Assembly (NCBI GenBank): GCA_003963435.1
Contig: RXJC01000054.1
Coordinates: forward strand, 43,909 to 107,908
Reading direction: 5' to 3'
From: Bradyrhizobiaceae bacterium
GTDB taxonomy: Bacteria; Pseudomonadota; Alphaproteobacteria; Rhizobiales; Xanthobacteraceae
DNA length: 64,000 bases
The position numbers were made by a program, and so were the translations under genes. The stretch's first letter is position 1, and each line of letters opens with the position of its first letter. This document shows, in pieces, positions 40,581 through 57,464 of this stretch. Under the pieces are notes generated by a model. That model was not told the origin of the DNA. It did not search any database and saw nothing but the letters and a program-made list of their open reading frames with translations.

Positions 40581-42338
40581 TCATCCGAATGTAAACACGT
40601 AGGCCTGCGCGCCCGGATCTAGGAACCGGATCTCGAAGGTCCGTTCGATGACGGGTCCGGAAGACCGGACAAGCTGGTACAGGCGCTGCGACGTGACAAC
40701 GCCATTGCCGTCCGCGTCGGTATCCATGCCGTGGGCATCGCCGGGTGGCTTGCCATCGATTGTGATCCGGAACCGTACTCTCGAGCCTTCCGACGGCGGA
40801 CCGAGAACGAGATGCAGGTCGCGAGCATGGAAGCGGTAGACAATGCTGCCATCGCTTGCATCGAGTTGCGCATGCTCGTTCGCGATGGTCCATTTGCCGT
40901 TCAGCGACCATTGATTGAGTTGCGGCTCTCCGGCGGCGTAGTCGTGGGCCTTGTCCTGCACAACGCCGCTGGGCGAGACGAAATTATCGATGCGTTTGTA
41001 GCCCAGGTAAGTCTCCGGCGACCTGACGTTATCCGTGTCGGCGGCAGCTTCGGCACCCGTCGCATTCACGCCCACGATTCCAGTGGGAACGTTCTTCTCG
41101 CTGGTATCGGCGAGAAGTCGCTGAATTATTTGCTCAGACTGCACGTACTCGCCCTCACCGAAGTGGCGGTGTCGCACCTTGCCGTTGCCGTCGATGAAGT
41201 AATGCGCCGGCCAGTACTCATTCTCAAAGGCGCGCCAGATCTTGTATTCGTTGTCGATCGCGACGGGATAGCCGATCCTCAGCATCTTGATCGCGCTTTT
41301 CACATTGTCGACGTTGCGCTCGAATGCGAATTCGGGCGCATGCACGCCGATCACGACCAGGCTGTGCTCGCGGTATTTCTCGGCCCAGGCGCGGACGTAG
41401 GGAATAGCGCGTAGGCAATTGATACAGGAATAGGTCCAGAAGGCGACCAGCACGACCTTGCCCTTCAGCGCCTCAACGCTAAGCGGCGACGAGTTGAGCC
41501 ATTCCTGCGCGCCCTCCAGCGAAGGCTTCAGGTCCACGACTGGCAATTGATCCGTGGCCTCCCCGGACGGCTCGACCTGGTGTGTCGTCGAAGGACTGGA
41601 CGCCGCCGTCTTGCGATTGGGATGCAGCCGGTTGAGCAGGGCTTGCTCAAGGGCGGTGGTGCTGCCCAGTGAGAGTCTTGTGAGGAAGCTAGTGTCGAGG
41701 CCGAGTGAGATCGTTGCGACGGCTGCGAGCACGGCGCCGCCGAGACCACGGCGGATCCATTCGCCGGCGCTGATCGACCTCTTCATCGCGGCGAAGACGC
41801 GGCCGCCCACAAAAATTGCGAGCGCGAGCGAGGTTGCCGCACCCGCGGCATAGGTCAGCAATAGCAGCGCCGTGCCGGGATTGGCGCCCTTCAGAGCTGC
41901 GCCCGTCAGGATCAACCCGAGCACCGGACCAGCGCAGGGCGCCCAGAGAAAACCGGTGGCAACGCCGAGCACCAGTGGCGTCAGGATCGTTTCCTGCCGC
42001 CCGTCGTCTGCCGAGTGCGACAGCCGAGCGCCGACGGCGACCATCGGCCCCATCAAGCGGTCGGCCAGTTCCGGAATCAGGAGCGTCAAGCCGAACACGG
42101 CAAGCAACACCAGGGCGGCAGCGCGGCCATATTCATTGGTCGAGACGACCCAGCCGCCGGCCACCGACGCGAAACTCGCCACGACCGCGAACGCCAGCGT
42201 CATTCCGATCAGCATCGGCAGACCGCTACGCACGAAGGGGCGGTCCGCTCGCGCCAGCACGAAGGGAATGACCGGCAGGATGCATGGGCTGACGATCGTC
42301 AGGACACCGCCGAGATAAGCAAGAACGTACAAGACCAT
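40581..42338 (-). CDS. DipZ-like protein: CcdA/DsbD transmembrane domain + thioredoxin domain + C-terminal domain
   Basis: 'YLGGVLTIVSPCILPVIPFVLARADRPF', 'VVLVAFWTYSCINCLRAIPYV'; start ATG 42338. Confidence 0.85.
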   Translation of the reverse strand: MVLYVLAYLGGVLTIVSPCILPVIPFVLARADRPFVRSGLPMLIGMTLAFAVVASFASVAGGWVVSTNEYGRAAALVLLAVFGLTLLIPELADRLMGPMVAVGARLSHSADDGRQETILTPLVLGVATGFLWAPCAGPVLGLILTGAALKGANPGTALLLLTYAAGAATSLALAIFVGGRVFAAMKRSISAGEWIRRGLGGAVLAAVATISLGLDTSFLTRLSLGSTTALEQALLNRLHPNRKTAASSPSTTHQVEPSGEATDQLPVVDLKPSLEGAQEWLNSSPLSVEALKGKVVLVAFWTYSCINCLRAIPYVRAWAEKYREHSLVVIGVHAPEFAFERNVDNVKSAIKMLRIGYPVAIDNEYKIWRAFENEYWPAHYFIDGNGKVRHRHFGEGEYVQSEQIIQRLLADTSEKNVPTGIVGVNATGAEAAADTDNVRSPETYLGYKRIDNFVSPSGVVQDKAHDYAAGEPQLNQWSLNGKWTIANEHAQLDASDGSIVYRFHARDLHLVLGPPSEGSRVRFRITIDGKPPGDAHGMDTDADGNGVVTSQRLYQLVRSSGPVIERTFEIRFLDPGAQAYVFTFG

Positions 42339-42561
42339 GGCAGACCACCTCCTATGGTCATACGACGGCGCCTTCCGCCCGTTACCGGCCTCACGGTTTC
42401 GTGCGAGGCCCGTGAGGCCGAGTTGAAGGGCATTCCAGACGCGACATCGGGTTTGGGCTCGATACGAAAGCTTACAATAATGGCATCCGGTGGTGGGATC
42501 CGGAATCGATCGCAGGTCACTATAGGCACACATTCGGCAGGGAAACGGCTTCTCGAAGCCG

Positions 42562-43914
42562 TTACCGTAGTGCGCGACTGCGGGTGGTCGCGATGTCAAC
42601 ATCGGTTGCGTGATTCACAAGATCGGCGATCACTTTGAGTGGATACTGACCCACGGGCCGCGCACTTTCTATCGAGACGTTCCCCCCCGCTTTCGCGACC
42701 AACGCCTGCAAACGCTCGAATTCATTGCACCAGATCGTTTCCATGTCCCTATCACGTCCCGTATCTCGCGCCCCGGCGGGATCTCCGATGCCGACTGCTC
42801 TCACCTGCATGATATCTGCTTGTTGTCCGCCCGAGAGCTCGACCCCGTACCCTGGATTGGCAGGCTTACGGAGAACGACCCGACCGCCCGTGACCCACGC
42901 GGTCATCATCCCCTCTGAGACCTCGTAACCGAGGCTTGCGAGACCCTCCAAGACGGCGCGTCGTCGCTCCTCCGCAGCCATGGAGCGGACCTCAGTCTCG
43001 ATCAAGAGATCGGCGCGTTTGACGAGGTCCTGATCATTGCCGCCGGCTCTCGCAATGGCCTGCTCGATCTCGACGCGCAGCGCGGCCGCTTCGGCCGATT
43101 TCATCTCCGAAAGTTCGGCATGCCGCTCAGCCAGATCCCGTTCTAGGCGGGCGCGCACGCGCCCGTTCTTGAGCGCAGATTTGAGATCGAGGAGCAGGCT
43201 ATCAGCAACAAGAGCCTGCCGGGCGCGCGGCTCGGCCTCGAGAGCCGCGATCCGAGCGGAAAAAGGACTAGGATCAATCCCAAGACCAGCAAGCTCGCCG
43301 AGGAGTTTGTCCACCTTCAAAAGCGCCTGGTCGTCGCTTGCGCCGGTTTGCTGAGAAGTCCACTCCTCGAGCGTAATACGACGGTCGCCGGCACCAAGCC
43401 GGTCGGCGAGTTCCCGCTGACGCTCGGTGACGCCTTCGGCGCGGACCATTGGCTGAAGCAGCACCAGCCCCTTGCTGACAGCCTTGTTGAGGCTCTCGAT
43501 AGACGCTGCCGGGGTCGTAAGCTCGCTTCGAAGGTCGACCGGGATCTCAATGCGGGAAGCTTCGAATTTCGCGAGCAGTGCTTGGGCAGCGGACTTGGCA
43601 CGTCTCAAATCACCCTTGCGCTTCACTTCAGATTCTGCGGCCTTTTCCGCGCGTCGCTCGGCATCGGCGTTCAAATATGAGATCTCGGCTATGGCCTGCT
43701 TTTGAAGAACTGTGAACCTGCCCGCGTCGAGCATACGGCGAATTTCGTCGCGTCGAGCGATGACCCGGTCGATGTCCGACTGATCAATCGTCCCATTGCG
43801 TTTGCAGGTCGAAGTCCAAAATTCGATAGCCGCATCCAGGCGCGCCAAGCTGCGGCGGCAAATCGAGATGATTTCCGCGCGGGTGACTATCCGGAAGGCT
43901 TTCGGACCACTCAT
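42562..43914 (-). CDS. coiled-coil hypothetical protein, last gene of the putative defence operon
   Basis: charged, helical-looking sequence; ATG 43914 overlaps the stop codon of the upstream helicase gene (ATGA). Confidence 0.7.
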   Translation of the reverse strand: MSGPKAFRIVTRAEIISICRRSLARLDAAIEFWTSTCKRNGTIDQSDIDRVIARRDEIRRMLDAGRFTVLQKQAIAEISYLNADAERRAEKAAESEVKRKGDLRRAKSAAQALLAKFEASRIEIPVDLRSELTTPAASIESLNKAVSKGLVLLQPMVRAEGVTERQRELADRLGAGDRRITLEEWTSQQTGASDDQALLKVDKLLGELAGLGIDPSPFSARIAALEAEPRARQALVADSLLLDLKSALKNGRVRARLERDLAERHAELSEMKSAEAAALRVEIEQAIARAGGNDQDLVKRADLLIETEVRSMAAEERRRAVLEGLASLGYEVSEGMMTAWVTGGRVVLRKPANPGYGVELSGGQQADIMQVRAVGIGDPAGARDTGRDRDMETIWCNEFERLQALVAKAGGNVSIESARPVGQYPLKVIADLVNHATDVDIATTRSRALR

Positions 43915-46900
43915 TGGTATCCTCCTCCGTTGTGAAGTGCGTTCTCGACGGCTTCCTTGAGGCGTTGACGCTCCTCGTCCCCGGCATGGGTCCAAGCGTA
44001 GGATGAGACGCGGTGAATGTACGGGACGGCCCCATTCAGAACCTTTGGACGCCAGACCTCGCGCGCTCGGGCTCTTTGAAGCAACAAATGCCGCGGAGCG
44101 TCGCACTCTACGCCCAACGCATACAGGCCCGTGCGAGGATCGGTTATCGCGAAATCAAGACTGAACGCGCCACCGTCGCGCGCCTTGGCCGGCTTCCATC
44201 CATTGGTCTCCAGGAATTTCTCGACGGATTTCGTGAAGCCATCCTCTACGTGGCTTACATGTTCGTGATCCGCGCTCTTTTCCGTCGCGAGGCGTTCGAG
44301 CAATGTCCTGCCGGATTCGGCCGATCCCTCCGAAACGGTACGAGCGTATTCTAGGTAACCTTGCAGATAGTCACGAGGTACACGTGGTCCGCTGCGCCGT
44401 GTCAGAAGGTCCGAAACCTCGGATACCGGCATGGACGTGACGATCACGATCTTTTCCCTTGCCCTGGTCACAGCCACGTTCAAACGCCGCTCGCCGCCGG
44501 CATGACCGAGTGCGCCGAAGCTCTTGCGGAAGACGCCATGCTCATTGCGTCCGAAAGTGGTCGAGAACACGATGATATCGCGCTCGTCGCCCTGAACGTT
44601 CTCTACGTTCTTGACGAAGAAGCCCATGTCCTCGCCTGCTTCGACGCGCTCGCGTTCCCGCATCAAGGCATCGCGAAATGTCTCGTCGCTCTCTGCACGC
44701 TCTTCCAGCGCATCCTCGATCGCGTCCGCCTGCTTGCGATTGAAGGTCACGACACCGACCGACGGCGGTGAAGCGCCTTCCCAGAGGTCGCGTAGATACC
44801 CCACCACATCGGAGGCTTCCTTGGGATTGGTCTGGCTCTTGTAGATGCCATCCGAGCGGAGAACCTCGATAGGCTTGATCCTCCGGATCGTTTCGTCGGG
44901 GTGGCGAACAGGCACACTGAGACCGTTCGCGTAGAACGAAGCGTTTGAAAACGAGATGAGCTCGCGGTATTTCGAACGATAGTGGACCTGTAGAGTTCGG
45001 CTTCGGAGAGCGGAACGCGCAAGTTGGAGTAGGTCGGGACAATCCTTGATCTCCCGCCGATTCCAGGTTTCCGCGAAGGCCTCGCGTTCCTCTTCGGTCG
45101 CTTCCTCTTCCGGCTCCTCGCCATCGAAGATTGCCGCTTCGTCATTCTCAACCTTGCTCGCGAAGAATGTCGTGGGCGGCATCTGCTTCTCATCGCCGCT
45201 CACGATCACGATCTTGCTCCGGAATAGCGATGGCAACGCATATTCCACCGGCATTTGCGAGGCTTCATCGAAGATGACCGTGTCGAACGTGCCAGGACGC
45301 GCCTGCAGCACGCGGCTCGCGATGTCGGGAGTCATCAGCCAAACTGGTCGCAGCGCGAAAAGGCCAAGCGGGGCAGCCTTCTCTATGAACTCTCGAAGTC
45401 GCAACGCCCTCGGACCGCGAAGTCGAGTGATCGGCTCCCACTCCCGCGTCGGGCGGACGCGGCTGACATCGATGCCGTGGACCAGAAGTTCCCTGTTGCA
45501 ATCCCTGATCTGCGTGTCGGCCTCGGCAAGCGACGTCACTTTCGCTTCGATCGCTCCGCTATCGAGGAGGACCTCCGGATTGGTGGCCTCCATCGCGCTC
45601 TTCCAGGCCAGCCGTGCTTCCCGTCCGATGGTTGCACGGATGCAAGAATCAAGATCGGCAGTACCTATCAGCGAGAGTTCAGCTTCCTTCGAGCGAAGAG
45701 TGCGGAAGATAGCGCGTTCCTTATCGCCGAGACGAACGGAGCGGAGCCGAAATTCCTGGTAGGGCGCCAGCATCGGTAACGCTTGGAGTATTTCGGCGAG
45801 GGCGACCTCGTTGGACCGGCCGCCTTCGATCGTTGCGCGTCTAGATTCGATCCAACCATCGTTAATGTATCGGGTGAGATCATCCAGCGCCGCATAGCTT
45901 TGCTGCCGAACATCCTGCCTTCTGAGGGCGCGATCCGCCCGCCCGAAGAACCAATCGATACCTTCTACCTTTCCGGTCATGGCTGCCCGGTCGAGTTCAC
46001 CACGGTTGGGGCAGTCGTCGATAACGGTCACGAGGTTGTGGACGACTGCAAGTATCGAATGCAGGTTTCTGGAAAACTCGGCGAGCTTGCCGGGCGCAAT
46101 GTCGTGATCCGGAGCCTTGCCGAAAAGCGCGGTAAGATATCCAGCCAACTGCTTCCTTAGCGGCCTGAGCACCAATTCCAGTTCGACTCCGCGATGAAAA
46201 GAGGAAATGGCTAAATCATCGTTGGCAAGATTCACTGTTGCCAGGAGAGCGCGAAGGCGACGCTTTCGGAGCCAACGCATGGGATTGATCTTCGCCAGTC
46301 CCGCCGCCGGCCGGAGTACAGACGCTGTTAATGCTGCAGTGGATCGAAGTTCATCATCGCCCATCACAACAAGCTTGCTCACCCGCTCGGGTTCATGCGC
46401 CGACGGATCCAAGGAAGAGAGGCGTTCTTCGAGCTGCATGAGGCCCGCCAGCATGTTCGTGCCGTGCGATCCGCCGCCCTCGGGGCTTCTAAACATAGGA
46501 AGCCAGCGTCCGAGATTGGCGCAGAGACCGACGCTAATCGAGCGAAGATCGCCGGCCGTCCGGAGCCATCGCCGGAAGGTTTCGAAATCCGAGATACTCA
46601 GAGAATCTGCGGTCTCCGCTTCTGCGCTCTCGCGAAGAGCTTCCGAGTCCCAGAAGGCACGAAGGGACGTACCGAACTCCTCCGCCGTTCCGCGGTCCGG
46701 GTTAAAGACTTTGAGTGAGGCGAGGGGATTGCCCTCGAACCTGGCCGGAAGCCAATATTTCGCAAGCGGTCCGCAATTCTCCTCGACCGTTGCGATGTCC
46801 GACGGATGCAAATCCGATAGGAGCGAACGAAGCGCCGGCGCATCGATCGGCTTCGGCTCGCTTTCTTCGATAGCCAGCAGTTCACCGAGCAATGACCGAT

Positions 46901-49900
46901 AGGTCAATCCCGTCCGATTTTCGACTTCGTGCAAGGCGGCCTGTTGACGATCGAGTTCCGCTTCGAGCACGTCGATGCGAGCCGCCAATCGTTCGCGATC
47001 GCGTTTCCAGGCGGGCGAGCCGCCCGCGGGACGACTATGCAGGGCTTCGACCTGGGAACGGATCGAACCGACGATGGCCTCGCGATCTCGAGTCGCATCC
47101 GTGATCATGACGAACCGGTCACCAAGCCGCTCTCTTTCGAGGCGCTTCCTGACGACGTCGATTGCCGGTTGCTTCTGGCAAATCACGAGCAGCGATTTGC
47201 CTCTGCCGATCGCGTCCGCCACCATGTTGACGATGGTTTGGCTTTTGCCCGTCCCTGGTGGCCCCTCAATGACGAGGCCTGGTGCCTGTCGAGCTTCGAT
47301 CACCGCCGCCTCCTGGGAGGGATCGCTGTCGGCCGTGAAGTACCGATCGATCTCCCGTACCGGAGCCAGCGAGGGTGGGGCCGACTTTTGATCGGTGAGA
47401 CGGAGTGCTGCCTCGAGCGCGGTCGCCGTGGGCGGCATTCCTCTCAAGAGCTGGAGATCCTTCATGACCGCCTGCCCCATAAAGGCGAGATGAAACAGCA
47501 CGGCTGCCGGCACGACTTGTCGTTCGTGCGAACCGACCTTCACGTCCTTCCCGGGGAGGGGCGTCAACTTGCTTCCCATGGGCGTGGCGAGTTGGCTGAA
47601 CGCGTCCATCACATCCTGAGCCGTAAGACTGCCACGGGTGAGCAGCTCATCTGCCGCTTCCTGCCATCGTCTTGCTTCGGGAATTCCCATCATACCTTCG
47701 AACGCTGGATTGACGACGACGTGTTCGGTTTCCGTCTCGGCGTTCTTTTCGCGTCCGTAACCGATCGTTACATGACCGCGGTTTCCCACTTCGGGCGACA
47801 CGCTAACTGGCCAGAGCAGGACGGGCGCGATCCTCGGCTTTGTGTTCGGCCTGCCGTCTCTCATGAGGAGGAACGGAAATCCCATGTAAAGACCGTCGAT
47901 CCCGGTATCTCGCTTGTAGAGCAGTGCATGCGAATGGAGAGACCGCAGTCTGCGTTCCAAACCTTCGTTCTCGGAAAACGCGGCAGGATCGATGTTCACT
48001 GCTCGACCGGCCCTTGCCAAAAGAAGACTGAGGATCTCTGATCCCGGCAGTCGCGCCGTATTCAACTCGGTCAGATCTATCCGCGCGGTCTTGCCGATGA
48101 GCATCCGCGTCAACGGTCCGCGCAGTACGCCGCCTGATATCCTTTTCGCGAAGAAATCAAGAATGGTCGAAACGTAGCCTTGCTTGGGAAGCGGCTTCCA
48201 CGTGTCTTTCGGAAGCGAGAGAAGTGCGAGCGCCCGACCGATCGGCATACGTCGGTCAAGACGAAATTCGTCGGCCCATTCGTCGACCGTCGAAATCCCG
48301 CACCTGGCGAAATTGTGTATACGCTCGTCGACGGCTTGGTAGATTTCACGACGAGGCCGTGCGAGTCGCGCCGCAGCCTCTTCCTTCGAAAAGGCGCTCA
48401 AGCCTGCCGATGAAGCCTGCTTGGCGGCCTCCTCGATCACCTCCTCCACCGGGCGGAATTGGCTCGGCGATGCGCTGAGAAGGATTATCAGATCCTCTTC
48501 GGCCGACTGTCGCCGCTCCACCAGCGAAACGATGCCCGCATGGTCGGTGTCGGGAAGCAGCCTCCGCTTCTCCTCCCACAGAGCCGACAAACGGGCCATC
48601 GACGTCGAAAGGAGGTGCACGCGAAGCAGGTCCTCCTCGACTTCGATATCGAGTTGATCCAGTCGCTTCCGGACGGTCTCGGCGCGCAGTTTCAGGCGCC
48701 AAAGCAGATCGTCCGCATCGACCTTTCGAAGAAGATCTGGAGCCGGGCCCGTAATGAGGCCGAAGCCGTCGTCGGGATGGTCGAGCAGCCAGCCCGGGGT
48801 AACGATGTTCCCCCGGACGATTAAAGGCATGGGCGGGTTCAGCGTCTTCAAGGAGATCGATAGCTTCAGATCTTCGTTCAGTTCCTCGACCCGTGCGAAT
48901 TGTCGCAGCGCCGCGGGCACTTTGGCATCGAAGCCCGCCTCCGTAGCCCAAGTCGCCACCGCTCCTCGCAGGAGGAGGCCTCTTGCCTCATCCCAGTTTG
49001 ATGCTTCGGCAGCGGCAAGAGCGAAGGAGCCGGCCGACCTATACTGCTTGCCGCCGAGCGTGATGGACGCCCGACCCTCCGCTTCGCCGGCTTTCTGCCC
49101 TGCGGGCGCCGACACTGCTTCGCCCGCCAGCCAGGCCTGAACTTCCTTCCATTGCCACCGCTGACGGCGATCGCTTGCGAGAAGGCCTCGAAGAAGCAGG
49201 TCTATGGAAGGATCCAGATTCTCCGGCAGCGGCACGCCGTTGGTCAGCACATGGATCAGGAAAGCTTGCTCGTTGATGCCATCGAAGCAGGCTCCTGCGG
49301 TGATCCGCTCCAGCAGGATCATCCCCAGGCTCCACCAGTCCGAGGCCGCCGCTACGCCGCCCGCAATCGCTTCAGGCGCCATGTAGCGGGTCGTTTCGAG
49401 CGGAGAGGCGATGTCGAGATCGAATTCCGAAAGTCGTGCGGAGCCGAAGCTGCCGATAGCGAGGTCGAGTGGATCCCGGGAGCGGACGAAGATGGTGGAA
49501 GGACGGAGGTCTCTGTGACGTAGTCCTGCTTCGGTCAGTGCATGAACGGCTTGCGCAAGCTGGCTAACGAACTCCTCGAACGCTGTCCGATCAATGGCGT
49601 CCAGCGACAGATCCGAGATGGTGCCGCCCGGAAATTCTTCGACCACCTCATAGGCGCGGTCGCACCATCGTCCGGTGGCGATTATTTCGGTGACGTGATC
49701 GCGCGGAAGTCTCCGCAACAGATCGTAGATTGCTCCGTCCGGTTCCGATGCAGACGCGTACAGCGTCAGTACGCCGCGACGACCAGTGGATTCCTGCACG
49801 GCAGTGAAGCGTTCGCGAACGGTACTGGACGACTGGATTCTATCTTGGAGACGCCACCCGTCGATGATGGTTTCGGTCGGCGAGAGCTCGGTTTCCGGCT

Positions 49901-50180
49901 CGGGTCCGGGCTCGGGTTGCGGAACCGGCGAGGCCGGTTTTTCGAGAATTTTTCCGCAAGTGCTGCATATGAGATCCCCTGGGGAATTGGGATGCCCGTC
50001 TGGACAAATGGGCTGAGACGGCGCCGGTTCCAGCTGAACAGGCGTAGGCCCCCGTCGCCCAGCCGGCGCGGGGTCGACCGATGACAGGTCCCATCCGCAA
50101 TTGTGACCATCGACCGCACCTTCGCAAAAGAACTCGGTGACGGGACGCTCGGTATCGCAATTCGGGCAATGTCTAATCAT
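43911..50180 (-). CDS. 2089-aa multidomain protein: zinc ribbons + serine/threonine (pseudo)kinase-like domain + SF1 (COG1112/DUF4011-like) helicase + C-terminal MTES_1575/DUF559-like restriction-endonuclease fold
   Basis: CPNC...C and CPDG..CSTC pairs; 'GLRHRDLRPSTIFV'; 'GPPGTGKSQTIVNM', 'VIFDEASQMP', 'VENVQGDERDIIVFSTTFG', 'RRLNVAVTRAREKIVIVTSM'; 'SLDFAITDPRTGLYALGVECDAPRHL...YIHRVSSYAW'. Confidence 0.88.
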   Translation of the reverse strand: MIRHCPNCDTERPVTEFFCEGAVDGHNCGWDLSSVDPAPAGRRGPTPVQLEPAPSQPICPDGHPNSPGDLICSTCGKILEKPASPVPQPEPGPEPETELSPTETIIDGWRLQDRIQSSSTVRERFTAVQESTGRRGVLTLYASASEPDGAIYDLLRRLPRDHVTEIIATGRWCDRAYEVVEEFPGGTISDLSLDAIDRTAFEEFVSQLAQAVHALTEAGLRHRDLRPSTIFVRSRDPLDLAIGSFGSARLSEFDLDIASPLETTRYMAPEAIAGGVAAASDWWSLGMILLERITAGACFDGINEQAFLIHVLTNGVPLPENLDPSIDLLLRGLLASDRRQRWQWKEVQAWLAGEAVSAPAGQKAGEAEGRASITLGGKQYRSAGSFALAAAEASNWDEARGLLLRGAVATWATEAGFDAKVPAALRQFARVEELNEDLKLSISLKTLNPPMPLIVRGNIVTPGWLLDHPDDGFGLITGPAPDLLRKVDADDLLWRLKLRAETVRKRLDQLDIEVEEDLLRVHLLSTSMARLSALWEEKRRLLPDTDHAGIVSLVERRQSAEEDLIILLSASPSQFRPVEEVIEEAAKQASSAGLSAFSKEEAAARLARPRREIYQAVDERIHNFARCGISTVDEWADEFRLDRRMPIGRALALLSLPKDTWKPLPKQGYVSTILDFFAKRISGGVLRGPLTRMLIGKTARIDLTELNTARLPGSEILSLLLARAGRAVNIDPAAFSENEGLERRLRSLHSHALLYKRDTGIDGLYMGFPFLLMRDGRPNTKPRIAPVLLWPVSVSPEVGNRGHVTIGYGREKNAETETEHVVVNPAFEGMMGIPEARRWQEAADELLTRGSLTAQDVMDAFSQLATPMGSKLTPLPGKDVKVGSHERQVVPAAVLFHLAFMGQAVMKDLQLLRGMPPTATALEAALRLTDQKSAPPSLAPVREIDRYFTADSDPSQEAAVIEARQAPGLVIEGPPGTGKSQTIVNMVADAIGRGKSLLVICQKQPAIDVVRKRLERERLGDRFVMITDATRDREAIVGSIRSQVEALHSRPAGGSPAWKRDRERLAARIDVLEAELDRQQAALHEVENRTGLTYRSLLGELLAIEESEPKPIDAPALRSLLSDLHPSDIATVEENCGPLAKYWLPARFEGNPLASLKVFNPDRGTAEEFGTSLRAFWDSEALRESAEAETADSLSISDFETFRRWLRTAGDLRSISVGLCANLGRWLPMFRSPEGGGSHGTNMLAGLMQLEERLSSLDPSAHEPERVSKLVVMGDDELRSTAALTASVLRPAAGLAKINPMRWLRKRRLRALLATVNLANDDLAISSFHRGVELELVLRPLRKQLAGYLTALFGKAPDHDIAPGKLAEFSRNLHSILAVVHNLVTVIDDCPNRGELDRAAMTGKVEGIDWFFGRADRALRRQDVRQQSYAALDDLTRYINDGWIESRRATIEGGRSNEVALAEILQALPMLAPYQEFRLRSVRLGDKERAIFRTLRSKEAELSLIGTADLDSCIRATIGREARLAWKSAMEATNPEVLLDSGAIEAKVTSLAEADTQIRDCNRELLVHGIDVSRVRPTREWEPITRLRGPRALRLREFIEKAAPLGLFALRPVWLMTPDIASRVLQARPGTFDTVIFDEASQMPVEYALPSLFRSKIVIVSGDEKQMPPTTFFASKVENDEAAIFDGEEPEEEATEEEREAFAETWNRREIKDCPDLLQLARSALRSRTLQVHYRSKYRELISFSNASFYANGLSVPVRHPDETIRRIKPIEVLRSDGIYKSQTNPKEASDVVGYLRDLWEGASPPSVGVVTFNRKQADAIEDALEERAESDETFRDALMRERERVEAGEDMGFFVKNVENVQGDERDIIVFSTTFGRNEHGVFRKSFGALGHAGGERRLNVAVTRAREKIVIVTSMPVSEVSDLLTRRSGPRVPRDYLQGYLEYARTVSEGSAESGRTLLERLATEKSADHEHVSHVEDGFTKSVEKFLETNGWKPAKARDGGAFSLDFAITDPRTGLYALGVECDAPRHLLLQRARAREVWRPKVLNGAVPYIHRVSSYAWTHAGDEERQRLKEAVENALHNGGGYQ

Positions 50181-50845
50181 GCTGGGCGAGCCAGCTTGGA
50201 GGAAATTCGCTTGTCCTCGGAGGTGTCGAGTGTCGATCCATTGCTTTCGATTAATTCCTGCAGTCTGCGAAAATCATTGCGTGCGGGTATGCCGGCAAAC
50301 CAGACGTCGCCATTTTCGTCGAACATGACGTCGACGGACCGATCCCGCTCGTCGACCAGGCGCTCGAAGCTGGCGAACCGGTCGCGGCCTTTTTCCGTGA
50401 TGAAGTGAAGTTCCTGATTGTCGCTTCCTCGCAGAGCAAGTGTCTGCTTTTCCTCGAAGTCAAAAGGCCCTGTAACGAGGGCATCGATCGTACCAGAGGA
50501 CGCGCCAACCATGTCTCGGATGGATGCCCACGGATATCCGGTGAAGACGAGTATGTCCGCCTCAGTCTTCGACCTAATTCGTGCCGTTAGTTCCAACAAA
50601 GCGTCAGGCTGATCGAAAGGCTCGCCTCCAGAGATGGTGATGCCGTCGGCCTTCGAGATCCACGGAATGATGGAATTGAGGACTTCTTCAACCGTCGTGT
50701 TACCCCGTCCTTTGGCCCAAGTATCCATGGAAATACAGCCCGGACACCGGATGGAGCAGCCCTGAAACCAAATGCCGAGCCTTCGTCCGGGTCCTAAAGT
50801 CGTCACGGGAAAATGGATACGCGATACGGAGATGCGAATCGCCAT
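50177..50845 (-). CDS. radical SAM protein, NrdG-like activating-enzyme family
   Basis: 'GIWFQGCSIRCPGCISMDTW' (CX3CX2C), 'ITISGGEPFDQPDALLEL'; stop overlaps the downstream start (ATGA). Confidence 0.88.
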   Translation of the reverse strand: MAIRISVSRIHFPVTTLGPGRRLGIWFQGCSIRCPGCISMDTWAKGRGNTTVEEVLNSIIPWISKADGITISGGEPFDQPDALLELTARIRSKTEADILVFTGYPWASIRDMVGASSGTIDALVTGPFDFEEKQTLALRGSDNQELHFITEKGRDRFASFERLVDERDRSVDVMFDENGDVWFAGIPARNDFRRLQELIESNGSTLDTSEDKRISSKLARPA

Positions 50846-50847
50846 CT

Positions 50848-52692
50848 CTAAGGCTCGCTTTCGAGCCGAAGCGTCGACGATGCCCCGGTTTGAACTTCCA
50901 GAACCCGATATCGGCTTCCTGCTTCTGCGTCGCTGTCGAATAGACCGCGCGAAAGCGGGTTGATGAGGTGGGCTTCGACCTGATTGCGGATACCGCGACC
51001 GCCGTTCGAAAGATCAGCCAGACACAAACCACGCAGCGTCGCGCGGGCCTGCTCCGACAGTGTCACGTCGTAGCCTAGCGATTTGACGTCGTTCAGCAGG
51101 TTGTCCACCATCTGATCGAAGATTTCGTCGGCGACATCTCCGCGAATGAAATCGAAGACGATCACGTTCTCGCCGATGCGATTCAGGATTTCCGGACGGT
51201 TGAGCACTTGATTGAAGTGCTTCTCGATCTCGGTACGGACCTTCCGTTTGACCGCATCGAACGTCTCCTCGGGCGTCACGTTCGCGATCCGCTCGCCCGT
51301 GGGGCCGGGAGTGTAGATACCGAGATTGGACGTGAAGACGATGAACGCTTCGGAGAAGTAGACGCGGTCCCCTCGTCCGGAGGTGAGAACGCCGTCGTCC
51401 AGTATCTGAAGGAATTTATCGAGGATTCGCGGGTGTGCCTTCTCGATCTCGTCGAAAAGGACGACGCTGAATGGCTTTTCCCGGATCGCGTTCGTGAGCT
51501 CGCCGCCGACATCGTATCCAACGTAACCGGGCGGGGCGCCGATCAAGCGCTGATCGGAATGCTCGGCACTGAACTCGGACATGTCGAAGCGGATGTATGC
51601 GCTGTCGTCGCCGAAGAGCAGGCTCGTGATGGTCTTTGCGAGTTCCGTCTTGCCGACCCCGGTGGGGCCGGCGAGGAAAGCGACGCCCCTCGGTCGGCCT
51701 CCCCTCGGCGATTGCCCGATGCCGGTGACGGCGCGTTTCACGATGTCGAGCACGTGAGTGACGGCGTGCGCCTGTCCCTTGACGCGGCGCCTTACGAACT
51801 CGTCAGCCGAGCTGATCTTATCGTGGCTTATTTTTCGCCACGGGTCTTCGGTGACGCCGACCTTGAACCGTCGAACCGCATCGGAGATGCGATCGAACGG
51901 GACGTTTTCGCTTCGGGAGAGCTGTGCGATCGCGCTGAGGTCGAGAAGCAGGAGTCCTTCCGTTTCATCGACGAATCCATTTGTCGACTTCTCCAAGTCG
52001 GCCGGCGCGGCATTTTGAGCGCCGGGCAGTCCCCGCATCAACGAACCGATCATAGTCCGTCTGGCCAAGTGGTCGGGCCGACCGATCGGAATGTGCCGAA
52101 CGCGGGGATTACCGATCAGGAACCAGTCGGGAAGGTCTCCTTCCTTGTCCACGATCCAAATGACGATGTTGAAATAGGGCTGACGACGTTCGCCGGCCGG
52201 CCGGGCCCGTGCAGAATGGGAAAGTATTAACGCGCGGGAAAACAACTGGTGTTCGGCCGGAGAAAGTGCCTCGCTGCGTGTAATCAAGCGTGACGCAAAG
52301 TCGATGATGAGGGCCGAGGGCGGGCCGTCGGAGGGGACATGCCGTTCGAGAGCCGAGGTCAATAGATCGATGCCGCCGGCAGCGGTCCCGTTCGCAGGCG
52401 AAAGCCCAAGATGCGTCAGAAAGCTATCGTCGGACGGTTCGAGGGCTCGAAAGCCGTGCAAAAGATCGAAGCTCGCGATCCGGCCATAGCCGGCATCCTT
52501 CAGCGCGTCCGGCAGCGCTCGGGTCAGGGAAACGGATGTGATCTGGCCGGGTGCGGCCTCATGGATCTGGAGATCCCTGGTATTGCCCGAAAGGACGAAT
52601 TGGCTTCGCAAGGGCAGAAACCGGAGCAAATCGCGCAACCATCTCGCCTTCTCGACCGTATCAGCCCCCACCAGCTCGACCCCCGTCCACAC
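50848..52692 (-). CDS. Clp/Hsp100-type AAA+ ATPase (ClpB D2-like C-terminal module with divergent N-terminal region)
   Basis: 'FLAGPTGVGKTELAKTI', 'GAPPGYVGYDVGGELTNAI' pore-loop region, 'VVLFDEIEKAHPRILDKFLQILDDGVLTSGRGDRV'. Confidence 0.88.
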   Translation of the reverse strand: MWTGVELVGADTVEKARWLRDLLRFLPLRSQFVLSGNTRDLQIHEAAPGQITSVSLTRALPDALKDAGYGRIASFDLLHGFRALEPSDDSFLTHLGLSPANGTAAGGIDLLTSALERHVPSDGPPSALIIDFASRLITRSEALSPAEHQLFSRALILSHSARARPAGERRQPYFNIVIWIVDKEGDLPDWFLIGNPRVRHIPIGRPDHLARRTMIGSLMRGLPGAQNAAPADLEKSTNGFVDETEGLLLLDLSAIAQLSRSENVPFDRISDAVRRFKVGVTEDPWRKISHDKISSADEFVRRRVKGQAHAVTHVLDIVKRAVTGIGQSPRGGRPRGVAFLAGPTGVGKTELAKTITSLLFGDDSAYIRFDMSEFSAEHSDQRLIGAPPGYVGYDVGGELTNAIREKPFSVVLFDEIEKAHPRILDKFLQILDDGVLTSGRGDRVYFSEAFIVFTSNLGIYTPGPTGERIANVTPEETFDAVKRKVRTEIEKHFNQVLNRPEILNRIGENVIVFDFIRGDVADEIFDQMVDNLLNDVKSLGYDVTLSEQARATLRGLCLADLSNGGRGIRNQVEAHLINPLSRGLFDSDAEAGSRYRVLEVQTGASSTLRLESEP

Positions 52693-52814
52693 TCTTTGCG
52701 CGACTATAGTAGATTACTCGCCTCTTTCGAGTCGGATCGCCTAGGAAAATGGCATAATCCCCACACGCTAGACGACCGAGCCGGGTCGCCGGCGAACGGC
52801 ATCGTGGTGGGGAA

Positions 52815-55800
52815 ATGCAGAACGTCAGTGGGAATTTGTACCTGAGCTCGACCGATCTGGTCGGGCACCTGAACTGTACGTACCTCACGGAACTCAACCT
52901 CAAAGTGGCCAAGAGTGAGCTTCAGAAGCCCAAGGTCTGGGATCCGGTGCTTGAGACGCTTGCCGAGCGCGGCGCCGCGCACGAACAGGCCTTCATCGAT
53001 CACTTGAAGACGCTCGGCATGCCCGCGACGGTGATCGATGGAGTAGGGCTCGATCCCAAGTCCATTTCGGCGACCTTGGAGGCCATGACTCGCGGCGATG
53101 CGGTCATCGTTCAAGGAGCATTACAATCGGGGGCGTGGAACGGCCGGGCCGACGTGCTCGGCCGTGTGGAAACGCCGAGTCGGTTCGGAGCCTGGTCGTA
53201 TGAAGTTACCGATACAAAGCTCGCGCGCGAAACGAAGGGGAATACGGTTCTGCAGATATCGCTGTATTCGGACATGCTTTCCGCGATGCAGGGTGTAGAG
53301 CCGACTGCCGGCCCACGTCGTAACCCCGGGTACGAATTTTGAGCCGGAAACCTACCGTATCGCCGACTACTCAGCCTATTACCGGCATGTGAGATCAAGC
53401 CTCGAACAAGCGGTCGCCAACGGCGCCGGCTCCGCCTATCCCGAACCGATCGAACATTGCGACATTTGCCGGTGGCGCCGTGATTGCGACGACCGAAGGC
53501 GGCGGGACGACCACTTGTCGCTGGTCGCCGGTATCAGCAAGTCGCAGATCGGAGAATTGACTAGACGCGGAGTCGGCAGCACGGCCGCGCTCGCTGCAAT
53601 GCCCATTCCTCTGGAATGGAGGCCGGAACGCGGAGCTGCCAAAAGCTACGAAAAGGTCCGCGAGCAGGCGAGAATTCAGGTCGAAGGCAGGACGAGCGGC
53701 TCGATGAAGTACGAGGCGCTACCGCCGATCGCCGGCTTCGGTTTGTCGCGGCTTCCCGCGCCATCTCAAGGCGACATCTTCTTCGACTTCGAGGGTGATC
53801 CTTTCGTTGGAGAAGGTGGTCTGGAATTCCTGTTCGGCTACTCCTTCCTCGATCACGAAGGGAAGCCGACGTATGTCGGCGACTGGGCTTCGGACCGGCG
53901 GGAAGAGCGAGCCGCATTCGAGCACTTCGTCGACTTCGTGACCGAGCGCCTTAAATCCTATCCCGATCTGCACATCTACCATTTCGCGCCGTACGAGCCG
54001 GCCACCATGAAGCGCCTAATGGGCCGTTACGCCTCGCGCGAGAATGAGGTCGACAACCTTCTAAGGGCCGAGATTTTCGTTGATCTCTTTGCCATCGTCC
54101 GTCACGGGATTCGCGCCAGCGTGGAGAGCTATTCGATCAAGAAGCTGGAGCCCTTGTACTCGTTTACCCGCAGCGTTCCGCTGGAGGACGTCGGGGCGGT
54201 CATGGCCAGGATTCAGGCGCGCCTCGAAATGGCAGATGCCGCTGGCGTTCCCGATGCGGACAAGGACACGATCCGCGGTTACAACAAGGACGACTGCGAC
54301 TCGACGGCCGCGCTGCGGGAGTGGCTTGAAGCGCTGCGCGCCAGTCTCATTGCCGGCGGCGAAGTGATCGAACGGCCCGTTCCAAAACCCGCGGAGGTCA
54401 GCGAAAAACTCGGCGATTGGCAGAAGAGGGTGGCAGTGCTCGTCGGTCGGCTTACGGAAGGCATTCCGGATGATGTCGCCGAACGGACGCTCAAGCAGCA
54501 GGCCCGCTGGCTGCTGGCATTCATGCTGGACTTTCATGGCCGAGAGAAGAAGGCCGTTTGGTGGGAATATTTCCGGCTACGCGATCTTTCCGCCGAGGAC
54601 CTCCTCCACGAACGCGCCGGTCTCTCCGGGCTTACGTTCAAGGAAGCAGCCGGTGGCACCGCAAAGGTGCCAGTTCATAGGTACAGCTTCGTCCTTCAAG
54701 ACACCGATCTTCGGCCCGACAGCGAGCTCAGGAGCGTCGGAGGGCAGAAGTTCGGTAGCGTCGTCGCCATTTCGCATGAAGATCGCACCATCGACATCAA
54801 GAAGCGAGGCGACACAGCGGAATTCCATCCGGAAGCCGTCTTCGCCCACAAATCGATGGATCGCGACGAGCGTCCCGAGGCTCTCTTCCGGTTGGGACAG
54901 TACGTGGCAGAAAACGGAATTGAAGGAGCCGGCGAGCACCACGCCGCGCGCGATCTTCTCCTATCAACCGCACCGCGGCTGAAGGGAGAGAGCCTGCAGG
55001 TCAAAGGCGAGGATCGTTTGAAAACCGCTACCCGGGTTGCGCTTGCGTTGGATCAGAGCGTCTATCCAGTTCAAGGGCCGCCGGGCGCCGGGAAGACCTT
55101 TACCGGGGCTCGCATGATCTGCGCTCTTGTGCGCGCCGGAAAGCGAGTTGGGATAACCGCCAATAGCCACAAGGTCATCCGCAATCTCCTCGACGAGGTC
55201 GTCGAAGCTGCAGGCGAAGAAGGTCTTCCGATCCGCTGCGTTCAGAAGGTCGATGAAAAGCATCAAGAAAACGATCTCGGGAGCTTGAAGTTCGCCAAGA
55301 AGAACGAGCAAGCCCTCGACGCGCTTCGGACCAACAGTTCCGTCGGCGGAGGAACATCGTATTTCTGGGCTCGGCCGGACGCGCGCCTTAGTGTCGACGT
55401 GCTGTTCATCGATGAAGCCGCGCAGATGGCACTCGCGAACGTGCTGGCGGTCGCACAAGCTGCGCAGAGCGTCGTTCTCCTGGGAGACCCGCGGCAATTG
55501 GAGCAGCCAATTCAAGGAAGCCATCCTGATGGCGTCGGAGTGTCAGCCCTGGATCATGTCCTCGGCCCCCATGCCACGATTCCGGCCGATCGGGGTCTGT
55601 TCCTCGCCGAAACGTGACGGCTCCATCCGCTCATCTGTGCCTTCAATTCGGAGCTGTTTTACGAAGGTCGCCTGAAGTCTCGGCCAGGACTTGAGCGGCA
55701 AGAAATCAGGATCAATTCCGGACTTAACGGTTCTGGCCTTCGGTACCTTCCGGTCCCGCACGACGGAAATCAGAGTTCGTCCCCGGAAGAAGCCGATGCG

Positions 55801-56214
55801 ATCCGCGACCTCATTGCGGACATCCTGGGATCCGACACGACCTGGGTCGACCGAAAGGGCAATGAGTCTGCGATTTCGCTCGAAGATGTCCTCATCATAG
55901 CTCCATACAATGCGCAGGTGTTCGAGCTGCAGGAGCGACTTCCCGGCGCTCGCATCGGCACCGTGGACAAGTTTCAGGGCCAAGAGGCGCCCATCGTCAT
56001 CTATTCCATGGCGACCTCCAGTCATGCGGATGCGCCGCGCGGAATGGAATTCCTGTACAGCGCCAACCGATTGAACGTGGCAGTTTCGCGAGCGAAGTGC
56101 CTCTGCATCGTGGTCGCCTCGCCACGTGTGTTAGAGGCCGAGTGTCGGACGCCTCGCCAGATGCAGCTCGCAAATGCCTTCTGTCGCTATGCCGAGTTGG
56201 CCTCCGTGCTTTGA
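52815..56214 (+). pseudogene. TM0106-type RecB-like nuclease / RNase H-like / SF1 helicase, broken by a +1 insertion (~53310) and an in-frame TGA (55615-55617)
   Basis: N-terminal frame ends at 53342; the next frame upstream of 53389 reads 'PAHVVTPGTNFEPETYRIADYSAYYRHV'; after the TGA the same frame reads 'RLHPLICAFNSELFYEGRL...VDKFQGQEAPIVIYSMATSS...RLNVAVSRAKCLCIVV' to 56214. Confidence 0.85.
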
Positions 56215-56274
56215 CGGGTCTCAAATGCAAAAAAGCTCCCTTCTCTCCAAAAAGCTCGCTTTTTTTGCCAAAAA

Positions 56275-56297
56275 GGTGGTACACACGGGTGGTACAC
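56275..56297. repeat. direct repeat GGTGGTACAC x2 (56275-56284, 56288-56297)
   Basis: exact 10-bp repeat, 13-bp period, next to the putative att site. Confidence 0.6.
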
Positions 56298-56354
56298 GGC
56301 CTCCGCCGGCCGTTGAAAAAAGCCTTAGTTTATAGTGGTTTTTTGAGAGGGTGG

Positions 56355-56386
56355 TTCGCTGGGTGAGAGTCCCACTCTCTCCGCCA
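56355..56386 (+). other. putative tRNA-Ser 3'-end remnant / attachment-site repeat
   Basis: 'ctgggtgagagtcccactctctccgcca' resembles T-arm + acceptor + CCA of tRNA-Ser (GTGGGTTCGAATCCCACTCTCTCCGCCA), with altered T-loop and no 5' part. Confidence 0.5.
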
Positions 56387-56510
56387 TTGCTCCGCAAATG
56401 CAGTTTTCGCAAGAGTGTCGCGCCGAAGCCCGCAGGGCGAAGGCGGCGTGGTTGCCATACGGCTTGCCAAGCCGGCGTCGAATTTTCTTCTGCACCCTCC
56501 GCCATCAGCC

Positions 56511-57464
56511 TCATCCCGCCACCCTCCACCGGCCATCTCCCGCCCGCTTCAGCGCGGGATCGCTCACCCGCACATGCTCGCCGAGAAAATCGATGAACGC
56601 GCGCACCCGCGCGGGCAGCGGCGCGGTGTGGCCGACATAGACGGCGTGGACGTCTTCGCGGTCGCCGGGATTGTAGTTTTGCAGCACCGGGACGAGACGG
56701 CCGGATTCAATGTCGGGGCCGATGTGGAAGAGGGCGAGGCGGGCGAGACCGACGCCGCCGAGGCAGAGCCGGCGGGCGGCTTCGCCGTCGCTGACGCGCG
56801 CGACGGGCGGCGGCATGGCTTCCTCGGTGTGGTCGCCGCGCTTGAACGGCCAGCCGCGGATACTGCGCGGAAAGGTCCAGCCGATGCCGCGGTGCTCGGC
56901 GAGATCGGCCGGTATCTTCGGCGTGCCGCAGCGGGCGAGATAGTCCGGCGCGCCGACCACGACCATGCGGCTGGTGCCAAGTTTTCGCGCGATCAGACGC
57001 GATGCCCGCAACGGGCCGACGCGAATGGCGACGTCGGCGCGCTCCTGCATCAGGTCGATCAGCGTGTCGGTCAACACGAGATCGAGCGTGACATCGGGAT
57101 GCTGCTTCAGAAAGCGCGGGATCAACGGCATCACATGCAGCATGCCGAACGGAATGTTGCAGTTGACCGTGAGGCGGCCGCGCGGCGCCGCCCCTGATGC
57201 CGCCTCGCGCTCGGCCTCCTCCATCTCGGCGAGGATGCGCACCGCGCGCTCGTAGAAGGCGCGGCCTTCCTCCGTCAGCGTCAGCTTCCGCGTGGTCCGG
57301 TTGACCAGCCGCGCGCCGAGGCGCGCCTCCAGCCGCGAGATCAGCTTGCTCACGCCCGACGGGGTCAGGCGCAGCTTTCTCGCGGCCTGGGTGAAGCCGC
57401 CGAGATCGACGACGCGGACGAACACCTCCATCTCGGCGGCGCGGTTGGTGTCGAAACGGGCCAT
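56511..57464 (-). CDS. LysR-family transcriptional regulator
   Basis: 'MEVFVRVVDLGGFTQAARKLRLTPSGVSKLISRLEARLGARLVNRTTRKLTLTEEGRAFY'. Confidence 0.93.
   Translation of the reverse strand: MARFDTNRAAEMEVFVRVVDLGGFTQAARKLRLTPSGVSKLISRLEARLGARLVNRTTRKLTLTEEGRAFYERAVRILAEMEEAEREAASGAAPRGRLTVNCNIPFGMLHVMPLIPRFLKQHPDVTLDLVLTDTLIDLMQERADVAIRVGPLRASRLIARKLGTSRMVVVGAPDYLARCGTPKIPADLAEHRGIGWTFPRSIRGWPFKRGDHTEEAMPPPVARVSDGEAARRLCLGGVGLARLALFHIGPDIESGRLVPVLQNYNPGDREDVHAVYVGHTAPLPARVRAFIDFLGEHVRVSDPALKRAGDGRWRVAG

Follow-up and report, generated by a model that had tools for sequence, protein, structure and literature searches.

Helicase-nucleases of the anti-phage or candidate families Hhe, ProA and PDC-S37 join a DUF4011 domain, a superfamily 1 (SF1) helicase and a C-terminal Vsr-like MTES_1575 nuclease. 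Radical S-adenosylmethionine (SAM) enzymes are found in a subset of the FtsH ternary conflict systems, where they have been proposed to modify a peptide effector (eLife 2020, PMC7159879). In every isolate of Pseudomonas aeruginosa the right flank of the core defence hotspot cDHS1 includes a small hypothetical gene, a large DUF4011 gene and a radical SAM gene, which were used as core boundary markers and not called a system (Johnson et al., PMC10250203). Here we analyse four consecutive genes that unite several of these elements, encoding a Clp-like ATPase (CLP), a radical SAM enzyme (RSAM), a helicase-nuclease (HEL) and a coiled-coil protein (CC). They were found in a 64,000-nucleotide stretch (the window) of contig RXJC01000054.1 from a Bradyrhizobiaceae bacterium. 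The quartet recurs as a unit across distant genomes and is apparently undescribed as a system: a literature search, with subscription journals and preprints mostly outside its coverage, returned no description of it.

A four-gene unit recurring in distant genomes

The quartet occupies positions 42562-52692 of the window in the order CLP-RSAM-HEL-CC (Table 1). The host genome, of 7.3 Mb and 89% complete, has its nearest relatives in Bradyrhizobium. CLP ends in a TAG stop codon, separated by a 2-bp gap from the RSAM ATG at 50845, while both RSAM-HEL and HEL-CC overlap by ATGA (50177-50180 and 43911-43914, respectively), the latter with GGAGG just before it. The original prediction, made from this sequence by itself, had described four minus-strand genes with one such gap and two such overlaps; its coordinates and junctions were all borne out, and its domain calls were confirmed by Pfam, PADLOC and NCBIfam.

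Table 1. Positions in the window of the four genes, their domains and associated features
Feature	Position	Strand	Remarks
CLP	50848..52692	-	614-aa tandem-AAA Clp/ClpB-like ATPase
CLP, degenerate first AAA domain	residues ~16-285 (51838-52647)	-	without P-loop
CLP, second AAA domain	residues 334-507 (51172-51693)	-	active by motifs; GYVG pore loop
RSAM	50177..50845	-	222-aa NrdG-like radical SAM enzyme
HEL	43911..50180	-	2089 aa: zinc ribbons, pseudokinase, DUF4011, SF1 (Upf1-like) helicase, Vsr/MTES_1575 nuclease
HEL, two zinc ribbons	residues 1-77, 49950..50180	-	cysteines conserved
HEL, pseudokinase	residues 155-347, 49140..49718	-	Pkinase E 1.1e-19
HEL, SF1 helicase	residues 953-1916, 44433..47324	-	AAA_11/AAA_12 and motifs
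HEL, REase_MTES_1575 (Vsr-like PD-(D/E)XK) nuclease	residues 1982-2077, 43950..44237	-	Pfam E 3.2e-15
CC	42562..43914	-	450-aa coiled-coil protein
Possible sigma-70-like promoter before CLP	52703..52730	-	TCGAAA-16-TATAGT; weak, consensus match alone
Cassette common to window and B. hipponense	42620..56204		13.6 kb, 90.7% identity
TM0106-type RecB-like nuclease/SF1 helicase gene	52815..56214	+	divergent from CLP; TIGR03491 E 1e-50

Recurrence was assessed by scanning an alignment of five RSAM orthologues against one genome per species (84,980 species), which gave 181 relatives, the best 80 of which were examined. In all 80 loci, which represent the nearest RSAM subfamily and not the whole set of 181 relatives, CLP lies directly upstream of RSAM and HEL directly downstream, on one strand. 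The next gene is CC in 76 loci; of the remainder, three run into contig ends and the fourth (L051) is a broken copy. The commonest junctions are 4-bp overlaps, seen between CLP and RSAM in 42/80 loci and between HEL and CC in 61/76. Across 72 loci the pairwise distances calculated for one protein track those for the others (r 0.87-0.94), so the four travel together. The association is not due to chance, and the recurrence in distant genomes to which the original prediction had looked for support was found, in the form of one co-inherited unit.

Hosts fall in the Alpha-, Beta- and Gammaproteobacteria and include Bradyrhizobium, Rhizobium, Devosia, Burkholderia, Paraburkholderia, Cupriavidus, Pseudomonas, Stenotrophomonas, Gilliamella, Legionella, Proteus and Serratia. 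A few metagenome-assembled genomes of Chlamydiae, Deltaproteobacteria and Obscuribacterales also carry the quartet, binning errors being possible in these, and a DNA search set for distant matches, with a Serratia query, yielded no copies in E. coli. The distribution is sparse: CC is present in 16/149 sampled Bradyrhizobium species, two of these copies being partial, and in 3/399 genomes sampled phylum-wide. P. aeruginosa PA7 does carry the quartet (L093), and the cDHS1 flank operon is therefore probably the same operon. Its genes in strain PAO1 are presumably PA2725-PA2728. Indels in PA2727 have been reported in clinical lineages of P. aeruginosa.

Features of the four proteins

Pfam recognises Pkinase, DUF4011, AAA_11/AAA_12 and MTES_1575 domains in HEL. 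Among 76 sequences the helicase motifs are kept (GPPGTGKSQT, DEASQM, GDEKQMPPT, VENVQGDERD and LNVAVTRAR), as are the D...ECD residues of the nuclease and the cysteines of the zinc ribbons. The kinase domain retains APE and DWWS, lacks the β3 Lys and has lost the Asp of DFG; conservation analysis extends to the whole family the earlier view that it is a pseudokinase.

CLP matches Pfam AAA_2 (E 1.8e-44), and Walker A, Walker B and GYVG of its second AAA domain are invariant or nearly so in 63 orthologues. Its structure model, with a predicted local distance difference test (pLDDT) score of 83.5, matches the D1-D2 tandem rings of ClpC/ClpB over the full length (E 1e-28), so that the hallmarks of a Clp/Hsp100 unfoldase are all present save the P-loop of the first domain. 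Judged against ClpA and ClpX, CLP has no visible ClpP-docking IGF/IGL loop. A search for phage-borne copies of its N-terminus found none.

RSAM matches Fer4_12 (E 4e-27) and the NrdG model (E 2e-25), the latter at 89.5 bits, short of the equivalog cut-off of 126.1. Its CX3CX2C motif (50735-50758), GGE and LRGSDNQ (compare RGSxNQ of NrdG) are conserved in 81 sequences, the first two placing it in the radical SAM superfamily among enzymes of activase type. NrdD was looked for in the 89% complete host genome and not found, and a role in ribonucleotide reduction is therefore unlikely.

CC consists of an N-terminal MSGPK tail, a long helical or coiled-coil middle and a C-terminal α/β domain (residues ~310-430). 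Its start is placed at the ATG at 43914, and not at the upstream GTG at 44106 given by the open reading frame list, because in 69 orthologues M1-S2 are invariant and G3-P4-K5 at least 90% conserved. Nothing in Pfam, PADLOC or NCBIfam matches CC. Its AlphaFold model (pLDDT 88) gave no match in a fold search of the PDB (best E 0.8), and a profile search of PDB sequences none under E 0.1. A glycyl-radical enzyme motif was considered and rejected, the conserved order being Y-G-x-E where G-Y is required.

Genomic context and distant variants

Bradyrhizobium hipponense (L095) shares with the window only positions 42620-56204, which stand there in another context, while six Bradyrhizobium relatives align rightwards from 56497-56518, and leftwards of that no part of the operon is present in them. 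The quartet and a TM0106-type gene thus form a cassette of 13.6 kb that was inserted at an island edge, and the sharp junction at 56204-56518, between the accessory cassette and a genus-conserved backbone (LysR/MFS/aldo-keto reductase), bears out the island-edge position first proposed. The TM0106-type gene is a single open frame of 1142 codons in B. hipponense; in the window it is interrupted twice, by a stop at 55615-55617 and, near 53300, by a frameshift, and these breaks may be assembly errors.

Elsewhere, quartet genes occur on plasmids in Rhizobium (a conjugative plasmid of R. leguminosarum) and Caballeronia. Copies in Microvirga and Roseomonas are truncated by insertion sequences (IS); the former adjoins a type I restriction endonuclease and a SIR2 gene, and a Rhizobium remnant is close to a multiubiquitin/ThiF cluster and a HEPN gene. 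Individual flanking proteins match Gabija, AbiE, Upx, IetA and restriction-enzyme models.

More distant relatives, on plasmids, share part of the quartet. In Aristaeella (Clostridia, L127), homologues of RSAM (40% identity) and CLP (39% over 616 aa) accompany a DUF4011 helicase, an active-type kinase with Lys, HKD and DFG, an MSGPK coiled-coil protein, a zinc-ribbon-FHA protein and a phosphatase: the same Clp, radical SAM and MSGPK coiled-coil core with the effector set rearranged. The N-terminus of HEL aligns with the separate Aristaeella kinase (E 4e-19). Plasmids of Moellerella and Acinetobacter encode an SF1 helicase, a PIN protein, a coiled-coil protein, CLP (33-36%) and RSAM, the Moellerella plasmid being conjugative and the variant there lying beside ArdA and an integrase. 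The best reading is that Clp, RSAM and coiled coil are the core retained by the variants and that the effector is interchangeable. Next after the Acinetobacter variant come genes for a small kinase-like P-loop ATPase and for another radical SAM protein, larger than the first (L130, 11733-13237).

A Paenibacillus plasmid cluster contains AAA, DUF1257, DUF2997 and a radical SAM protein 37% identical to RSAM, with a layout similar in outline on Arthrobacter plasmids (L125, 7712-10579; L128, 6980-10603). Comparison of the CC C-terminus with DUF1257/DUF2997 and with the distant coiled-coil proteins gave E values of 0.017-0.6 for single sequences and 0.002, at 13% probability, for a pooled alignment; the C-terminus of a related coiled-coil protein weakly resembles DUF2997 (E 0.013). 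These values are no more than suggestive. The clusters also resemble Ycf46/Ycf35, an uncharacterised pair found in plastids and cyanobacteria, to which RSAM would have, through them, a weak tie.

Several features lie outside these comparisons. Promoter-like matches numbered four, where 2.4 were expected from shuffles, and no tRNA was found within the window. Downstream of CC, a fused DsbD-like/thioredoxin gene (40581-42602) is itself accessory, with full-length matches in about 4/40 other Bradyrhizobium genomes. Far from the quartet, at 622-2919, is an AAA protein that weakly matches peptidase M41 (FtsH-like). At one locus (L037, 4128-7887) an AAA ATPase and a UvrD-like helicase, a pair Gabija-like by appearance, lie upstream of the CLP orthologue at a contig end.

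Proposed function and relation to known systems

On balance, the sequence evidence leads us to regard the quartet as a probable defence system, horizontally transferred, against mobile elements, whether phage or plasmid. Defence is favoured because of the patchiness, the plasmid carriage, the frequent breakage, the swapping of effectors and the kinship of HEL to Hhe, ProA and PDC-S37. HEL would be the effector, its zinc ribbons and pseudokinase forming a sensing or regulatory head, its SF1 motor translocating on nucleic acid and its C-terminal Vsr-like nuclease cutting it. CLP, RSAM and CC would make up a control module licensing an interchangeable helicase-nuclease: RSAM, by means of SAM and a 4Fe-4S cluster, may modify or radicalise a protein of the system, most likely CC, and the Clp ring may then unfold or remodel the modified protein, or a CC-HEL complex, switching the nuclease on or off. 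The substrate is probably one of the system's own proteins, since the gaps between the genes are too narrow to hold a peptide gene; this lack of room, with no NrdD detectable in the genome, makes CC the likeliest target, and it is also the first choice because Clp, RSAM and coiled coil are common to the variants. A more specific scheme is doubtful: RSAM would place a glycyl radical or another SAM-dependent modification on CC, with Gly3 of MSGPK as candidate, and the Clp ring with its dead D1 would read or thread the tail, so licensing interchangeable nucleases.

Several observations pull against a defence function. The probable quartet operon is core in all P. aeruginosa isolates, unlike a typical accessory defence system, and housekeeping genes flank many loci. 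At least 8/150 flanking proteins have PADLOC hits, compared with about 5/146 controls drawn solely from the window's family, a difference not significant by protein count; counted as model matches, the figures are 67 for the flanks and 8 for the controls. The defence-island association of the original prediction therefore draws on striking individual cases, such as the Microvirga and Rhizobium remnants, with no significant enrichment by protein count in the flanks, and the link is best called suggestive. The coiled-coil proteins of the distant variants are connected by position, N-terminus and architecture, their alignment not being significant, and the role assigned to RSAM is one that we infer.

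A real though minority possibility is that the quartet serves core quality control of nucleic acids or proteins, for example in DNA-damage repair or in clearing stalled nucleoprotein complexes by unfoldase and helicase-nuclease, and that it is sometimes transferred and merely flanks defence hotspots. The chief argument for it is the presence of the flanking core genes in every P. aeruginosa isolate (PMC10250203), to which may be added the housekeeping neighbours and the regulation suggested by a pseudokinase and an unfoldase. Such a function fits poorly with patchy occurrence in Bradyrhizobium (16/149) and rarity across the phylum, with plasmid-borne and IS-disrupted copies, and with the exchange of nuclease effectors between variants.

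It is improbable that the TM0106 nuclease-helicase is a fifth obligatory component. Although it travels in the 13.6-kb cassette together with the quartet, remains intact in B. hipponense and has relatives adjoining a few other quartet copies, it went undetected beside most of the 80 loci, for which reason it was rejected as a core member, and in the window it is broken next to an intact quartet. In this lineage it is an accessory or passenger gene of the cassette, outside the universal core. More improbable still is a system akin to those of ribosomally synthesised and post-translationally modified peptides, in which a small peptide would be modified by RSAM, with the other genes serving its processing, its export or immunity. 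Radical SAM enzymes do often modify peptides, and such a role has been proposed in the FtsH ternary systems (PMC7159879), but intergenic gaps of a few bases leave no room for a precursor gene and Pfam finds no transporter or peptidase within the quartet. That RSAM is an ordinary NrdG, the activase of anaerobic ribonucleotide reductase, in the operon by accident is scarcely credible, its match to the NrdG model (E 2e-25) and RGSxNQ motif being outweighed by a score of 89.5 bits where 126 is the equivalog cut-off, by the failure to find NrdD in the 89% complete genome and by linkage to CLP and HEL fixed at 80/80 loci.

Should the defence proposal be right, the quartet would be the first defence system found, as far as our search showed, in which control of a helicase-nuclease is shared by a Clp unfoldase and a glycyl-radical-activase-like enzyme, and the P. 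aeruginosa genes used as hotspot landmarks would become a candidate core immune system. The module of Clp, radical SAM and coiled coil with swappable effectors offers a search handle for more systems.

Among named systems none combines all four proteins, as originally supposed: no PADLOC or NCBIfam model set matches the whole quartet. Nor does either Mokosh or Dodola fit, PADLOC scores limiting the likeness to one domain each. With Mokosh (MkoA/MkoC) the shared elements are a Upf1-like SF1 helicase and the kinase-helicase theme; the MkoA match is mainly to the helicase (168 bits), and CLP, RSAM and CC match no Mokosh model. The ClpB-like AAA domain is shared with Dodola (DolB, 57 bits) and PDC-M37B (96 bits), but in both the match is confined to the AAA core, and no DolA is present among the four proteins. 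TerY-P systems contain vWA, PP2C and an active kinase, whereas the quartet lacks vWA and PP2C and its kinase is inactive by motifs; kinase, FHA and phosphatase do occur in the relative from Aristaeella, with no annotated vWA. The NrdDG system differs in that RSAM falls below the equivalog cut-off and no NrdD partner was found in the genome.

FtsH ternary systems share with CLP the tandem AAA arrangement with a dead first domain, but their AAA is of FtsH type and that of CLP of Clp type; no MoxR or vWA match, as expected of FtsH ternary/MoxR-vWA systems, was found in the four proteins, whose composition is fixed at 80 loci. The AAA/DUF1257 (Ycf35)/DUF2997/radical SAM plasmid clusters likewise pair an AAA ATPase with a related radical SAM enzyme, but have no annotated helicase-nuclease or long coiled-coil protein, homology with CC being unproven. 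Hhe, ProA and PDC-S37 are distant relatives of HEL by sequence and have its combination of DUF4011, SF1 helicase and MTES_1575 nuclease, HEL scoring 478 bits against PDC-S37 in three stretches, 475 against ProA and 220-328 against Hhe; the NCBIfam cut-offs lie far higher (475/1500 bits for ProA, 328/2000 for Hhe). Unlike these families, HEL bears N-terminal zinc ribbons and a pseudokinase and is one of four obligate genes. The effector belongs to a known class, and the control module may be new in kind.

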